A stretch of 64,000 nt of DNA from Huiozyma naganishii CBS 8797 (lineage: Eukaryota > Ascomycota > Saccharomycetes > Saccharomycetales > Saccharomycetaceae): the NCBI RefSeq assembly GCF_000348985.1, contig NC_035923.1, positions 372,001 to 436,000 of the forward strand, in the 5' to 3' direction. Below the pieces are notes generated by a model, which did not search any database, was not told where the DNA came from, and was given only the letters and a program-made list of their open reading frames with translations. The stretch's first letter is position 1. Each line of letters opens with the position of its first letter. Below, in pieces: positions 20,828-42,139 of this stretch. Position numbers and translations under genes: made by a program.

Positions 20828-21289
20828 ATGGCCTCTGACAGCATAGCGATTAGATACGTCACTGACGGTGACAAAGAGGAATGGACCAGGTTATGGCTTG
20901 GATTCAGGGCCCATTATGATATTCCAATCCCCGATGGTCTCGGGGACGCCAATTTCAAGAGAATCATGGACGATTCCGTGGATATGTGGTCAGCGTTCGC
21001 CGTTGACACTTCAAGGGACGACAAGCCGATCGGTCTTGTCAATTGGGTGAGTCGACCATCCACATGGGACCTGACTGATATTGTATACCTTCACGATCTG
21101 TACGTGGACGAAAACGAGCGTGTTCGCGGCGTCGGACGCAAATTGATTGAGTTTGTCTACTCTGAAGCGGACAAGAGAGGCACCCCGCTGGTTTATTGGA
21201 CCACTGACCATTACAACCACAGGGCACAGCTCCTGTACACGAAGGTAGCCAAGAAGACCAGCAAGGTGATCTACGAGAGGGAGTTATGA
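20828..21289 (+). CDS. GNAT acetyltransferase, HPA2/HPA3-type, copy 1
   Basis: 153 codons. A GNAT domain covers the whole protein: IAIRYVTDGDKEEW at the N-terminus, DIVYLHDLYVDENERVRGVG (acetyl-CoA loop R-V-R-G-V-G) near residues 85-103, and DHYNHRAQLLYTKVAKKTSK before the end. S. cerevisiae Hpa2 acetylates histones in vitro and Hpa3 acetylates D-amino acids. The short uniform size fits this group. A paralogue follows 257 bp downstream on the same strand, and the two differ throughout, so the duplication is not recent. In S. cerevisiae the HPA genes are subtelomeric, so the position here is not syntenic. Substrate unknown. Confidence 0.9.
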   Translation: MASDSIAIRYVTDGDKEEWTRLWLGFRAHYDIPIPDGLGDANFKRIMDDSVDMWSAFAVDTSRDDKPIGLVNWVSRPSTWDLTDIVYLHDLYVDENERVRGVGRKLIEFVYSEADKRGTPLVYWTTDHYNHRAQLLYTKVAKKTSKVIYEREL

Positions 21290-21546: not shown

Positions 21547-22011
21547 ATGGGATCTTCTGTGGAGGTGAGATACGTTCAGCCTGGTGACAGGGAGGAATTG
21601 GCTCGTCTCTTCACGCTGTACTTGAACTTCTACAAGTCGTTGGATAAAGTCCCCGCCACGCAGTTTGATTTGAACTTCAAGAGGTTCCTGGACCCGAAGG
21701 AGCGAATGTGGGCAGCTGTGGCAATTGACACGTCCACTGGGAAGCACATCGGTATGGTGCAGTGGTTCCACCACACGAGCACCTGGGAACCGGAGGGCTG
21801 TATCCTGTTGAACGATCTGTACGTGGATGAAGATTCACGGCTGGGCGGTGTAGGGCGGGCATTGATGGAGTTTGTATTTTCGGAAGGGGACAAGATTGGT
21901 GTCGGGAATGTGTATTGGCACACGGATACCTCTAACCACAGGGCACAATTGCTGTACACGAAAGTCGGGTATTTGTCTTCCCAGTGCAGGTACGTAAGAA
22001 ACGGTTACTGA
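21547..22011 (+). CDS. GNAT acetyltransferase, HPA2/HPA3-type, copy 2
   Basis: 154 codons. It starts VEVRYVQPGDREEL and carries CILLNDLYVDEDSRLGGVG (acetyl-CoA loop R-L-G-G-V-G) and NHRAQLLYTKVGYLSS. It is clearly homologous along its whole length to the gene just upstream, but the C-terminal strand differs (VGYLSSQCRYVRNGY against VAKKTSKVIYEREL), and the substrate-side segment near residues 30-60 is also changed. The two may have diverged in substrate. Assignment to HPA2 or HPA3 individually is not possible from sequence alone. Confidence 0.9.
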   Translation: MGSSVEVRYVQPGDREELARLFTLYLNFYKSLDKVPATQFDLNFKRFLDPKERMWAAVAIDTSTGKHIGMVQWFHHTSTWEPEGCILLNDLYVDEDSRLGGVGRALMEFVFSEGDKIGVGNVYWHTDTSNHRAQLLYTKVGYLSSQCRYVRNGY

Positions 22012-25696: not shown

Positions 25697-26812
25697 TTAG
25701 GAGGATTCCCTGTCGAACTCTTTGCTCATGTCGGCATCGTCGATGGCACCGCAGACGGTTTCACACATGATACCGGTGACCAAGTATGGGTCGATGTTGG
25801 AAGCCGGTCTACGGTCCTCGAAGTAGCCGTACCCCTCTCTTGCGACTGCTCTTGGGATTCTGATGGATGCGCCTCTGTTGGCGACACCTGCAGAGAAGGC
25901 GGTCATTGAGGCGGTCTCGTGTCTCCCCGTGAGCCTCAATTCGTTATCGGCACCGTACAACTTGATGTGTTCTAGATGTCTCTTGGACAATTTCTCGATC
26001 GCTTCGTCGATGTACTTCATCCCGCCTGGGGCTCTCATGTTCTTCGTGGAGACGTTAGTGTGGCACCCGGCACCGTTCCAGTCGCCCTTCAAAGGTTTTG
26101 GATGGAACGAGATCTTGACACCGAACTCCTCGGCGACTCTATGCAAGAAGTATCTTGCCATCCACAATTGGTCACCCATGGCGATCCCAGTACATGGACC
26201 GACTTGGAACTCCCATTGCGAGGGCATCACCTCCGCGTTGATCCCGGACAAGTTAATCCCCGCGTACAGACAGGCTCTGTAGTGAGCCTCGATGACGTCT
26301 CTTGCGTAGACTTTCCCAGCACCGACACCACAGTAGTAAGGTCCCTGTGGCGCAGGGAACCCGCCCTTTGGCCACCCGTAGACGTTGTCGTACATGTCGA
26401 ACAGCGTGTACTCCTGTTCCAGCCCGAACCAGATCTCTTCGTCCTTGTGTGCGTTGAACAGCTTAGCGGCCTCGTGTCTGTGGTTGAACTTGTTTGGAGT
26501 GCCGTCGTTGTTGAAACACTCGGCAAGCACGACGATGTTGTCACCGCCTCTGAAGGGGTCAGGGTACAGAGCGACGGGCTTCAGGTAGATGTCCGAGTCG
26601 TGGCCTGGGGCCTGGTTGGTCGAGGACCCGTCGAAGTTCCACTCTGGGAGCTGTTCCACCGAGGTGATCTTCTTGTTCAGAGTTCTGCCCTTGGAACGCA
26701 TGTTACCGGTCCCGTCGATCCACACGTACTCGGCGATAACTGAGCCCCTCTGGTCCAAATCGAGGAATTTCTGTAATATAGCAGTCTTTTGCATATGTTC
26801 TGTTTCAGCCAT
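25697..26812 (-). CDS. GLN1: Glutamine synthetase
   Basis: 371 codons, standard for eukaryotic type II glutamine synthetase, a cytosolic decamer that makes glutamine from glutamate, ammonia and ATP. Motifs: [20 protein letters not shown] near residue 64, [27 protein letters not shown] and [10 protein letters not shown]. Codon use is strongly biased and GC-rich, as expected for a highly expressed gene. Three GATA-factor core sites lie in the 930-bp upstream region, in keeping with nitrogen control by Gln3/Gat1 in S. cerevisiae. Complete and unremarkable. Confidence 0.99.
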
Positions 26813-27742: not shown

Positions 27743-29200
27743 CTATCGCGATGGGTCCGTATTCCCCCCTTGTTTTGCTGCCTCGTAGTCCTCCTTCGTA
27801 TACCACTTGCCCAGTTCCCAGGAGGGTAGGTTCGCCATTGTCGCGGCACCCATCCAGCTTTGCAACTGTCTGTCCATCAGGTTTTGGTTGGCAAACGTGA
27901 CCAGCTTGTACTGCGGGAACCGTATCGATAACTCTCTGATGATCCGGGACTCGATCCCATCAATCAGCGAGGCGGCACCCGTTATAATGACGTTTGTGAG
28001 TAAAGACGTGTACACTTGCTCCGGTGTGGTGATCCCACTCTTGGCACCCGCATTGGGCATCGCAGTGTTGTTACTGTTGTTAGCACCGTTGTGGTTCCCC
28101 GAGTTGTGCGACGTGGAGGAGTTCCCAGGTGTCTTGCTGGGGAGTGTCATTGACGCGCCCATGCTCCCCAGTGAGTTCGCAGTGCTTCCAAGAGAGCTTA
28201 TACTCGCAGCGGCCTTCTTGATCGACTTCCCAATCAACTCACCGAGGCCGTCCTCCCTGTGGAACTTCTCGGAGACCCTTGATGGGTTGAACAGCGCCTC
28301 CGGGATCGCGTAACATTCTCTAGCAGTCAAAGGCACAGTCTTCCCCGTGGGTCTGTACAAGAAGTTCTTCGCCTGTTCAAGCGGGTTGTTAGTTTGGATC
28401 GTAGTAGGGCCCCCACCAAATTGCTGCATTTGCATCTGTTCATGTTGCCTTGCGAACATCTCCGCTTGCTCCCTGTAGAAAGTCTCCAACTCTGCAAGAT
28501 CCTTGTCAGCGACTTCAAGCATCGACGCTTTGAAATCCTGAATCCACGTGTTCGCCTCGTACCACACCTGCAGCGATGACCCGGAACCTTCTTGATCTTG
28601 CCCCAATTTCTCGGACATCTTCGTCTTGGCCAAGTAGTCCAGGAACGCACCGCCGTACTTGGACCGCACGCACCCTGTACGCACAACAACACCATCGTAC
28701 ACCGGTGTAACGGTGCATCCGTTGGTACCGATATCGATAACCAAGGCGGAACTTTTCCCCATCGACAACGCAATGGCCAACGGCTCAATCACAAACTGGA
28801 CCACGGGCACATTGAACCTGTAGAACGCCATGTCCATGTACCTCATCATCACGAGCCTCGCCCTCTCCGGTTTCGAAAACGCAGGCATCGTGACCACCAG
28901 CGGCACCTCGTTCGCCGTGCACTGCAGCACGCTTTCGTATATGTACCCCCACTGCTGCGCCAACGCGTCCCAATTGTACGGCACGTCGTTCTCGTCGAAA
29001 AGCGTGTACACCTCCGCACCAGCACCACTTTTCCCCATGCTCACCATCTCGTACTTGTCAAACACAAGCGTCTTGTCATCGCTCGATAGCTTGGCGTAAC
29101 CGGACGGGATAACGCCCTCGGGCACCTCCTTGTTGCTGAACCCAGCAACGGTATGCGACGCCTCATGGTGAATCACCGCGCATCTTTTATCCGTAGTCAT
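27743..29200 (-). CDS. ARP7: Actin-related protein Arp7 (SWI/SNF and RSC subunit)
   Basis: 485 codons (S. cerevisiae 477). Arp7 pairs with Arp9 on the HSA helix of Snf2 and Sth1. Actin-fold segments include ALVIDIGTNGCTVTPVYDGVVVR split by the phosphate-loop region, FVIEPLAIALSMGKSSALV, and a C-terminal VIITGAASLIDGIESRI. Typical actin ATP-site residues are partly replaced, as known for Arp7. A low-complexity insert rich in S, N and G lies near residues 330-395. It is divergent from HTS1, as in S. cerevisiae YPR034W-YPR033C, and the shared promoter carries the Rap1/CACGTG cluster. Confidence 0.94.
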   Translation of the reverse strand: MTTDKRCAVIHHEASHTVAGFSNKEVPEGVIPSGYAKLSSDDKTLVFDKYEMVSMGKSGAGAEVYTLFDENDVPYNWDALAQQWGYIYESVLQCTANEVPLVVTMPAFSKPERARLVMMRYMDMAFYRFNVPVVQFVIEPLAIALSMGKSSALVIDIGTNGCTVTPVYDGVVVRTGCVRSKYGGAFLDYLAKTKMSEKLGQDQEGSGSSLQVWYEANTWIQDFKASMLEVADKDLAELETFYREQAEMFARQHEQMQMQQFGGGPTTIQTNNPLEQAKNFLYRPTGKTVPLTARECYAIPEALFNPSRVSEKFHREDGLGELIGKSIKKAAASISSLGSTANSLGSMGASMTLPSKTPGNSSTSHNSGNHNGANNSNNTAMPNAGAKSGITTPEQVYTSLLTNVIITGAASLIDGIESRIIRELSIRFPQYKLVTFANQNLMDRQLQSWMGAATMANLPSWELGKWYTKEDYEAAKQGGNTDPSR

Positions 29201-29355
29201 CTGCCCGACACAGACACAACCTCACACACGCACAAACGTACAAATGCCAATTACAGCAACTTCAACCGCAGCGTCCTTCGCTTTGTATATATGCAACTTT
29301 TCAACTTTCCAAATCAATTCCAAAAAAAATCTGGACGATCACGTGAAAAAAACAG

Positions 29356-29391
29356 ACACCCATACATTAAATATTTTAAAAAGATCACGTG
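29356..29391 (+). promoter_or_regulatory. Rap1-type site plus CACGTG, module 1
   Basis: ACACCCATACATT (29356-29368) is a near-perfect Rap1 site. CACGTG follows at 29386-29391, with 18 bp between the T at 29367 and the box. Confidence 0.65.
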
Positions 29392-29426
29392 ATTTAAATT
29401 TGTTAGCACGTGACCCAAAAATTAAA

Positions 29427-29459
29427 ACACCCAGACATTTATTTTAATACTGTCACGTG
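29427..29459 (+). promoter_or_regulatory. Rap1-type site plus CACGTG, module 2
   Basis: ACACCCAGACAT (29427-29438), then a 15-bp AT-rich spacer, then CACGTG (29454-29459). Same orientation as module 1. Confidence 0.65.
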
Positions 29460-29489
29460 AAAATAAAATAAAAGCCACGTAATCTCAAA

Positions 29490-29525
29490 CACGTGATATT
29501 TTTAATAATTTTGATGTCTGGGTGT
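29490..29525 (-). promoter_or_regulatory. Rap1-type site plus CACGTG, module 3 (inverted)
   Basis: On the minus strand ACACCCAGACAT (29525-29514) is followed after 18 bp by CACGTG (29495-29490). Its 12-bp Rap1 part is an exact inverted copy of module 2. Confidence 0.65.
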
Positions 29526-29729
29526 GTCATGTGTCACAAAAACCGTGGAAATTGAAGAATGAAAAAATTTTCTGAGAGGAACGTCGATGCCGTCGAGAGA
29601 CGATGTGTAAGTAGTTTTGTAGATGTGTAAGTCGTGTTTGAGGTGTTGACAGAATAGGCTTCACTTTGTAGGGAAAAGGTCTTTTCTTGCACAGTTTCTT
29701 CATTTTTTGTCTTACCTTTGCCTCTTTGT

Positions 29730-31397
29730 ATGATCAGGAGGGCAATTGGCCGTATTATACCACAAGTAACAGCGTCGAGGTCGAATCATATCAAGAGAGT
29801 CATGTCGGAGATTTCCAATGCCAATGCTGAGAAGCCCGCGGCCGCAGTGGCCCCGCAGGAGGGTGAGAAGAAGAATAAGAAGAGCTCGAAGAAGGCGTCG
29901 AAGCTGCAGGTGCAGCTGAAGACCCCCAAAGGGACGAAGGACTGGGCGGATACGGATATGGTCATTAGAGAGGCCATTTTTGAGACGCTGTCTGGTATCT
30001 TTAAGAGACACGGTGGGGTCACGATTGACACTCCAGTGTTTGAGTTGCGCGAGATTCTGTCTGGGAAATACGGTGAGGATTCGAAATTGATTTACAACCT
30101 TGAGGACCAAGGTGGTGAGTTGACGTCACTGCGTTACGATCTAACAGTGCCATTTGCTAGGTTCGTCGCGATGAACAACGTACAGAACATCAAGCGGTAC
30201 CATATCGCGAAGGTGTACAGGAGGGACCAGCCGGCTATGACCAAGGGCAGAATGAGAGAATTTTACCAGTGTGACTTCGACGTCGCGGGTGCATACGAGG
30301 CACTTGTCCCGGATGCAGAGATCCTGTCCATCATCGTCGAGGGGCTAACCGCTCTCGGGATCAATGACTTCAAGATCAAACTCAACCACAGGAAGATCCT
30401 CGACGGGATATTTAAGATCGCAGGTGTCGCGGATGAGGACGTCAGGAAGATCTCCTCAGCGGTCGACAAACTGGACAAGAGCCCCTGGGAGGCAGTCAAG
30501 AGAGAAATGACCGAGGAGAAGGGACAGACGGAGGAAACAGACGGAAAGAATTGGGGGAGTACCGTCAAATTGAAGGGTTCCCTCAGCGAGGTCTACGAAA
30601 GCCTCGCCAAGGACGACGCCATTCTCAACAACGAGCTTGCAAAGCAGGGGCTCGACGAGATCAAGACGCTAATGGGCTACACTAGCGCCTTCAACATTGA
30701 CCAATTCATCTCGTTCGACCTTTCGCTTGCTAGAGGGCTGGACTACTACACGGGGCTCATCTACGAGGCTGTTACGGAAGCCTCCGCTCCTCCAGAGAAC
30801 GCAGTCGAATTGAAGAAGAAATCTAAGACCGCAGAGGACGCCTCAGAGTACGTGGGGGTCGGCTCGATTGCGGCCGGTGGTCGTTACGACAACCTTGTCA
30901 ACATGTTCGCCAAGGCGTCCGGGAAAAACTCAGCACAGATCCCCTGTGTCGGGATCTCTTTTGGTGTCGAGAGACTGTTCTCGCTCATCAAGCAGAGAAC
31001 ACACTTGACAAACACCATCAAACCATCGTCCACACAGGTGTACATCATGGCATTCGGTGGTGGGAAGGACTGGACGGGTTACCTCCCTGAAAGAATGCAG
31101 GTCGCCAAACAACTCTGGACCGAGGGCATCGAAGCGGAGTACGTGTACAAATCAAAGGCCAACCCAAGAAAACAATTTGAAGCTGCCGAGAAATCGGGTG
31201 CCTCGATTGCCGTTATTTTGGGTAAGGAGGAATTCGCTGACGGCCAAGTCCGGATTAAGAGACTAGGTCCCGAGTTTGCCGACGACGATGGCGAACTCGT
31301 TCCCACTGCGAACATGGTCGAAACTGTCAAGGAGAAACTGCTTACTGCTCAGAAGGACGGTGTCAATGACGTCACCCGCTTGTTGAGAGGGTTATAA
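29730..31397 (+). CDS. HTS1: Histidyl-tRNA synthetase, mitochondrial and cytosolic forms
   Basis: 555 codons from the ATG at 29730. A class II synthetase core carries [14 protein letters not shown] motif 2 ([15 protein letters not shown]), the histidine signature [14 protein letters not shown] and [11 protein letters not shown], and a C-terminal anticodon-binding domain ([25 protein letters not shown]). A second in-frame ATG at 29802 (MSEISNAN) follows a 24-residue basic, amphipathic leader typical of a mitochondrial presequence. The first ATG has T at -3 and the second G, so both proteins may come from one mRNA by leaky scanning. In S. cerevisiae one HTS1 gene also serves both compartments. 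The N-terminus after the second start is lysine-rich. Complete. Confidence 0.98.
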
Positions 31398-41360: not shown

Positions 41361-42139
41361 TCGATCATTCTTGCTTACCTCATGGGGGGCTGTAGCCGGT
41401 TGGTGGTTAGTACCGCTGGCGCCTGTCGCTGGCACTCGGGGAGCTTAAAGTCCGTTCGTGCTCCGGGCTGGCCGGTGCTTGCGACTACGTGTTCTGCGGT
41501 CACCGGCGTCCGTATCTCCGTGTTCGCGGTAAATAATAGGGTGCTATTAGGAGAGGTGCGCTGCGGGGGTTTCTCCGGGCAGAGTGCGCCCTCCGCTTTT
41601 GGGGTTGGGGGGAGCCTGGGGTAGTTTGGGCGGGGTGTGTGGGTGCAGCGCGTTGATCCGTGTCACGTGACTGTGGGGAGGTGTTCGAGACGCGTGCGTG
41701 CCTCTTACGCGGGTGAGCGTGGATCTGCTCTGTCTCTCCTGCTGGCAGTCACAGAAGCTTGACAGCGCGAGAGTGCTCTACTCTCTCTCTGGTAAATATG
41801 TATTGTATGTAGTGTGGAACGGGTGCTTGGTGGTTGCCCCGCCTTCAGCACGACCTGTTGCATCGTGGTAAAGGAGAACTGGATTGAGAGAACATGTACA
41901 GGAGAGTGTTTTGAGATGCACTAGGAGCCTCTGCCCCAGTAGGTGCTATTAGGTGACACTGGGTGGTCTCTTTTTCCAAGGTTTCATGCTTATTACCCGG
42001 ATTCTTCATATTCTTTTCATATTTTTCCATCTCTATGCAAACCTTGTAACGTTGGGCTTTAAATTGAGAGCTTAAACTTGTGCACTTTCTAAGGTACACT
42101 GCTACCACGTCCACACACACGTAAGGGGTGGTTTGAAAC

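Follow-up and report, generated by a model that had tools for sequence, protein, structure and literature searches.

Promoters with several Cbf1 sites, or with Rap1 sites placed beside those of a partner, have been described in yeasts. The divergent IDH1-NCE103 promoter of S. cerevisiae possesses three Cbf1 sites, and cooperative Cbf1 binding was shown there; in vivo, the cooperativity of Cbf1 in this species follows a 10.65-bp period with peaks at 11, 22, 32, and 41 bp (PMC7229839). Rap1 contacts TFIID, and Rap1-Mcm1 pairs are found at 33 non-ribosomal genes of Ka. naganishii (PMC6173580). Nucleosomes are displaced and chromatin is invaded by Rap1 (PMC7005674). Divergent noncoding transcription can be restrained by general regulatory factors, for which one of the reporters assayed carried a Cbf1 site (PMC9481977). 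Depletion of nucleosomes over CACGTG was seen in most pre-WGD yeasts and in C. glabrata, whereas the remaining post-WGD species studied did not show it (PMC2897762).

In this study, the divergent promoter between ARP7 and HTS1 was analyzed within a 64-kb window (the whole stretch of DNA presented, C2:372001-436000), and motifs were searched in the genome of 10,845,821 bases (10.85 Mb) in 13 contigs. We hold with moderate confidence that a dense array of sites in this promoter is a two-way core kept nucleosome-free by Rap1 and Cbf1, where the binding, the depletion and the direction of the effect are predicted from the DNA sequence. An earlier note on this DNA knew of no described Rap1-Cbf1 module at this promoter, and we also found no Rap1-Cbf1 sites at HTS1-ARP7 in the titles and abstract openings surveyed.

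Organization of the ARP7-HTS1 promoter

The actin-related protein ARP7 is encoded on the minus strand (27743..29200) with 50% identity to Saccharomyces uvarum Arp7, and the histidyl-tRNA synthetase HTS1 on the plus strand (29730..31397) with a tRNA-synt_His match at E 4.1e-35. The two genes diverge from a gap of 529 bp (29201-29729). A glutamine synthetase gene lies beyond ARP7 on the minus strand (25697-26812), and the order HTS1-ARP7-GLN1 is also that of S. cerevisiae. ARP7 is a subunit of RSC and SWI/SNF. Two in-frame ATGs stand 72 bp apart at the start of HTS1 with a basic leader between them (29730-29804), as expected for mitochondrial and cytosolic forms, and the architecture of the promoter could set the mitochondrial/cytosolic ratio through the choice of start site. 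Elsewhere in the window, two adjacent genes of GNAT-family acetyltransferases on the same strand (20828-21289 and 21547-22011) are likely a tandem duplicate pair.

Five CACGTG boxes are located within 156 bp of the gap (29340-29495), with starts at 29340, 29386, 29407, 29454, and 29490, and constitute 5 of the 14 CACGTG in the window. The earlier note placed each of them within an RTCACRTG match, which was confirmed, all five sitting in RTCACGTG on at least one strand. Box 1 (29340..29345) belongs to ATCACGTG at 29338-29345, box 2 (29386..29391) reads RTCACGTG on both strands, box 3 (29407..29412) belongs to GTCACGTG on the minus strand, box 4 (29454..29459) to GTCACGTG, and box 5 (29490..29495) to ATCACGTG on the minus strand. 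The boxes are interleaved with three candidate Rap1-type sites, all of them full RMACCCANNCAYY matches: site 1, ACACCCATACATT, on the plus strand (29356..29368), site 2, ACACCCAGACATT, also on the plus strand (29427..29439), and the inverted site 3, ACACCCAGACATC, on the minus strand (29513..29525). A degenerate CACGT (CACGTA) is read on the plus strand between boxes 4 and 5 (29476..29480), and a weak E-box, CATGTG, without an RTCACRTG match adjoins site 3 (29528..29533, plus strand). The surrounding sequence is AT-rich, with a GC content of 30% in 29340-29525 against 44% in the whole window. A TATATAT on the ARP7 side (29286..29292) is a possible TATA element, and an A8 tract on the plus strand adjoins the array (29322..29329). 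A tracts of this kind disfavour nucleosomes.

The spacers from the 12-mer ACACCCANACAT of sites 1, 2, and 3 to boxes 2, 4, and 5 are 18, 15, and 18 bp, respectively, or 17, 14, and 17 bp if counted from the end of the 13-letter Rap1 consensus. Two modules are direct and one is inverted, as previously claimed, and the pattern ACACCCANACAT-N10-25-CACGTG has two forward matches and one reverse match in this promoter, which are the only three in the genome; the same pattern read backwards has no match in the 10.85 Mb. The claim of a fixed order stood only in part. A CACGTG does follow each Rap1-type site at these distances, but two of the three sites also have a box 12 or 16 bp upstream of ACCCA. 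Because CACGTG is thus present on both sides of these two sites, the layout is better described as two sandwiches and an inverted half-sandwich. The first sandwich of CACGTG, Rap1-type site and CACGTG spans 29340-29391 with boxes 46 bp apart from start to start, the second spans 29407-29459 with boxes 47 bp apart, and their facing boxes 2 and 3 are 21 bp apart, start to start. The half-sandwich (29490-29525) is composed of a CACGTG and the inverted site, with the weak CATGTG beyond. The neighbouring boxes are therefore spaced by 46, 21, 47, and 36 bp, and when the units are aligned, their motifs and some of their AT-rich spacer sequence coincide.

Chance occurrence in AT-rich DNA was rejected, since at most three boxes appeared in dinucleotide shuffles of the 529-bp gap against the real five. 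The mean was 0.18 CACGTG per shuffle, five boxes were reached in 0 of 5000 shuffles, and the strict Rap1-type site had a mean of 0.0006 per shuffle (n=5000). The array is real and statistically strong, and it is probably functional.

The similar order and spacing might also be a relic, functionless in itself, of a single module that was duplicated locally in tandem and in inverted form, which we consider rather unlikely. Over 45 nt that include the motifs, the arm 29356-29400 is 80% complementary to the arm 29481-29525, and the spacers of modules 1 and 2 and of modules 1 and 3 resemble each other more than shuffled spacers do (p 0.018 and 0.011). Against this, the spacers of modules 2 and 3 are not alike (p 0.22), and no likeness exists beyond the modules either, in six of six flank comparisons (p >0.25). 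Since the likeness of the spacers is modest and ends at the module edges, local duplication is no more than a possible origin; it would account for how the array arose but not for how its five boxes have stayed intact.

CACGTG clusters in the genome

With gaps of 12-42 bp, 32 CACGTG triples were detected in the genome, every one of them on both strands, against none for the reversed pattern. They were merged by hand into 20 clusters, including ARP7-HTS1, a count valid for one gap pattern only, since clusters with closer or wider gaps exist outside it (C1:854040-854080 and C5:392040-392173). The number of boxes is five in ARP7-HTS1, six at C2:1169028, and five at C11:254387. Fifteen of the 20 clusters lie between divergent genes and five in tandem gaps (L057, L060, L061, L064, and L065), where the flanking genes were identified solely as open reading frames; part of the left flank is masked at L065, and at L057 that flank consists of a short fragment. 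The divergent fraction is 14/19 without ARP7-HTS1, and 11/16 if three repeat-bearing clusters (L030, L031, and L043) are also left out. By comparison, 6 of the 21 other promoter-holding gaps in the window are divergent, one of the six resting on a doubtful frame of 119 aa. The excess has p values of 6e-5 (14/19) and 0.001 (11/16) against this rate, and of 4e-4 and 0.004 against one third.

The genes flanking the clusters are diverse. They include FBPase and SecY families, a Ras-family GTPase with tubulin, SUI1 with an ANTH protein, adenosine deaminase with a kinase, RAI1 with glutamyl-tRNA synthetase, CPDase with SDA1, and MMS19. RTCACGTG is present on a side in 75 of the 80 boxes of the 19 other arrays, compared with 5 of the 9 isolated boxes in the window. 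The ARP7-HTS1 array is extreme but not isolated. Because similar arrays exist in the same genome, it is probably a strong example of the known open two-way promoter kind and not a one-off: the genome uses this promoter type repeatedly, ARP7-HTS1 is a dense member of it, and it does not represent a new kind of system.

Close CACGTG pairs are likewise abundant, with 117 in the genome against 11 in the control. Spacing was analyzed in 49 of the 117, and 38 were left after 11 repeat-type pairs were set apart. A spacing of exactly 11 bp was found in 9 of the 38 pairs, among the matches listed, and the remaining listed pairs show no significant period without these nine. In the 19 other arrays, the three repeat-bearing ones included, 22 of the 47 spacings of 18-48 bp are 20-22 bp (binomial 6e-11). 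These peaks in the native sequence of another genome, at 11 and 20-22 bp, are close to the 11 and 22 bp of the helical-phase cooperativity of Cbf1 that was determined in S. cerevisiae with synthetic as well as native promoters (PMC7229839). At ARP7-HTS1, only the 21-bp step matches the in-phase peaks, and the steps of 46, 47, and 36 bp are off. The arrays suggest that in one post-duplication yeast lineage Cbf1 kept or regained general-regulatory functions, often close to Rap1-type sites.

A dispersed repeat was also observed, in which CACGTG boxes surround a CTGCGGRATTG-like core within a longer, variably recurring stretch. It disperses CACGTG pairs with distances of 18 or 21 bp and is present at L030, L031, L043, and L076-L080, for example at C1:928564-928695, C3:302699, and C5:28892. 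The exact pattern CTGCGGRATTGCACGTG was found in one of the 75 loci examined. This repeat may be the remnant of a mobile element.

Rap1-type sites close to CACGTG

The strict 12-mer ACACCCANACAT occurs 12 times in the genome against six for the backwards pattern, and three of the 12 are in the ARP7-HTS1 promoter. Four of the other nine precede genes of ribosomal proteins, at a distance of 0.7-1.1 kb to the main exon. CACCCANACA, a consensus narrower than ACCCANNCAYY, has 200 matches against 165 backwards; by both counts the Rap1-type motif shows little enrichment in the genome, so that a large part of its matches at other loci may be something other than Rap1 sites. Whether the module has other genomic copies, as the earlier note asked, depends on the motif: none exist with the strict motif, but they are present with a wider Rap1 consensus. 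ACCCANNCAYY has a CACGTG 0-30 bp downstream in 23 rows against two in the control, 31-61 bp downstream in nine rows against three, and 0-30 bp upstream in 23 rows against one. The combination of CACCCANACA and CACGTG with gaps of 5-35 gave 16 matches against 0 in the control for the downstream order and 10 against 2 for the upstream order.

Near and far boxes were compared for the downstream order only. Outside ARP7-HTS1, 19 sites have a near box and three have a box only at 31-61 bp (binomial p 0.0004); the numbers become 19 and 5 (p 0.003) if two sites with boxes in both ranges are also counted as far, and 20 and 6 (p 0.005) by rows. The gap between the Rap1-type site and CACGTG is 3-9 bp at 12 of the 19 sites, 12 and 14-17 bp at six, and 22 bp at one. 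The proximity of the two motifs is supported by these counts, and the helical phase is no more than suggestive, with p 0.011 at 10.5 bp but 0.07 once the period is scanned, and no phase signal in the upstream order.

Among the loci examined, the nearest analogue to ARP7-HTS1 is C5:392040-392173 (locus C5:391900-392300), a tandem gap with the promoter of a COX4/COX5-family gene, where five CACGTG, one CATGTG, and two Rap1-type sites are interleaved in 134 bp. Four boxes and two Rap1-type sites are found both in the divergent Ras-family/tubulin promoter at C5:619330-619433, presumably YPT1-TUB2, and at C3:727661-727747. In the window, a Rap1-type site CACCCACACACC with CACGTG 18-19 bp away (41634-41669) was observed in a divergent gap upstream of an adaptin-family gene.

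These counts bear on a dedicated Rap1-Cbf1 composite element, in which the two factors would bind jointly at a preferred distance and cooperate, here and at other genes. The downstream proximity (19 near sites against three far-only) and the Rap1-Mcm1 pairs at non-ribosomal Ka. naganishii genes argue for it, yet we regard it as unlikely. Outside ARP7-HTS1 the two orders are about equally common, with 20 rows downstream and 21 upstream, so the order is not fixed, and joint binding through a fixed module, which the earlier note suggested as one option, is at most hypothetical. Nor is it established by the spacing, given the p of 0.07 for the scanned phase and a likeness of the spacers that may partly be due to duplication. 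The four strict Rap1-type sites of ribosomal genes also lack a CACGTG within 700 bp. In addition, a large S. cerevisiae binding assay reported that 36 of 1917 motif pairs were cooperative and that motifs of general regulatory factors hardly influenced the binding next to them (PMC11551769), and this rarity, together with the unfixed order here, counts against a specific Rap1-Cbf1 cooperation.

A further reading can be proposed only tentatively, namely that the lineage evolved a Rap1-Cbf1 grammar outside the ribosomal genes, with the two kinds of sites kept no more than about 20 bp apart and the boxes often helically phased among themselves. The targets of the generalist factors Rap1 and Cbf1 were rewired between S. 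cerevisiae and C. albicans (PMC2834713), which along with the Rap1-Mcm1 pairs of Ka. naganishii gives rewiring around Rap1 a precedent in the lineage. If such a grammar is true, ARP7-HTS1 would be its densest member among the loci examined, with C5:392040-392173 and C5:619330-619433 as further members, and it would be the second case, after Rap1-Mcm1, of Rap1 sites channelling the gain of partner sites.

Putative function of the array

Both factors are encoded in the genome. One match to the Rap1 DNA-binding domain was found, which is very like S. cerevisiae Rap1 in that domain. Eight HLH matches are encoded, and one of them is Cbf1 according to its match to the solved centromere-binding protein 1. 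Others presumably resemble Tye7, Pho4, Rtg1, and Rtg3. With eight HLH matches in the genome, the boxes could also be recognized by proteins other than Cbf1.

In the two-way promoter core that we favour, the array would act as the common nucleosome-depleted core of the divergent ARP7-HTS1 promoter and feed both genes. Rap1 would occupy the three ACACCCANACAT sites and Cbf1, as a bHLH dimer, the five RTCACGTG boxes. As general regulatory (pioneer) factors, both would evict nucleosomes and position the +1 nucleosome on either side, and Rap1 would also recruit TFIID. The Cbf1 dimers at boxes 2 and 3 may cooperate, because these boxes are two helical turns apart. The mutual help of Rap1 and Cbf1 would probably be indirect, arising from competition with one common nucleosome and not from a dedicated contact. 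The earlier interpretation is partly supported in this respect, as a nucleosome-free platform between two housekeeping genes fits the array and the published biology. On the other side, the host is a post-duplication yeast, and the reported non-depletion of CACGTG in such species other than C. glabrata (PMC2897762) counts against the proposal. As ARP7 itself is a subunit of remodellers with which these factors act, one may speculate about a feedback loop.

The E-boxes might instead be read by Tye7, not Cbf1, within the Tye7/Gcr1/Gcr2/Rap1 collective, as at glycolytic promoters. Tye7 acts with Gcr1, Gcr2, and Rap1 in S. cerevisiae (PMC7229839). Two of the bHLH proteins encoded here (L068 and L069) presumably resemble Tye7, but neither ARP7 nor HTS1 is glycolytic, and Gcr1 was rejected because its motif, CTTCC or CWTCC, is absent from the 529-bp promoter; we find this reading quite improbable. 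A centromere-like CDEI cluster, or boxes derived from the dispersed repeat, is extremely improbable and was rejected in both forms, for although RTCACRTG is also CDEI and the repeat core is found in 3 of the 20 clusters, the promoter has no CCGAA, the core of CDEIII, and the GCGGRATTG core is absent from the 64-kb window.

Comparison with known systems

The ARP7-HTS1 promoter resembles the Tye7/Gcr1/Gcr2/Rap1 collective in having E-boxes and Rap1 sites together (PMC7229839), but it possesses no Gcr1 motif. Like the Rap1-Mcm1 element of Ka. naganishii, probably the same species as the present host, which is found at ribosomal and 33 other genes (PMC6173580), it couples Rap1-type sites to those of a second factor at a preferred distance, also beyond ribosomal genes. 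The partner here is CACGTG, mostly 3-17 bp away, whereas Mcm1 sites lie 54-74 bp from the Rap1 site; no CC-N6-GG Mcm1 core was found in 29201-29729.

A likeness is also seen to the promoters governed by the general regulatory factors Cbf1, Reb1, Rap1, and Abf1, whose sites lie in the nucleosome-depleted region of housekeeping promoters (PMC2897762 and PMC9481977), a region that is predicted here. Three full RMACCCANNCAYY matches and five RTCACGTG boxes are present, with both factors encoded. The simple consensus sites of Reb1, Abf1, and Tbf1, and likewise those of Mcm1 and Gcn4, are absent from the 529-bp promoter, which differs in carrying multiple sites for each of two factors.

IDH1-NCE103 (PMC7229839) and ARP7-HTS1 are both divergent promoters with multiple Cbf1 boxes, putative ones in the case of ARP7-HTS1. 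The ARP7-HTS1 promoter differs from IDH1-NCE103 by five boxes that are interleaved with three Rap1-type sites.
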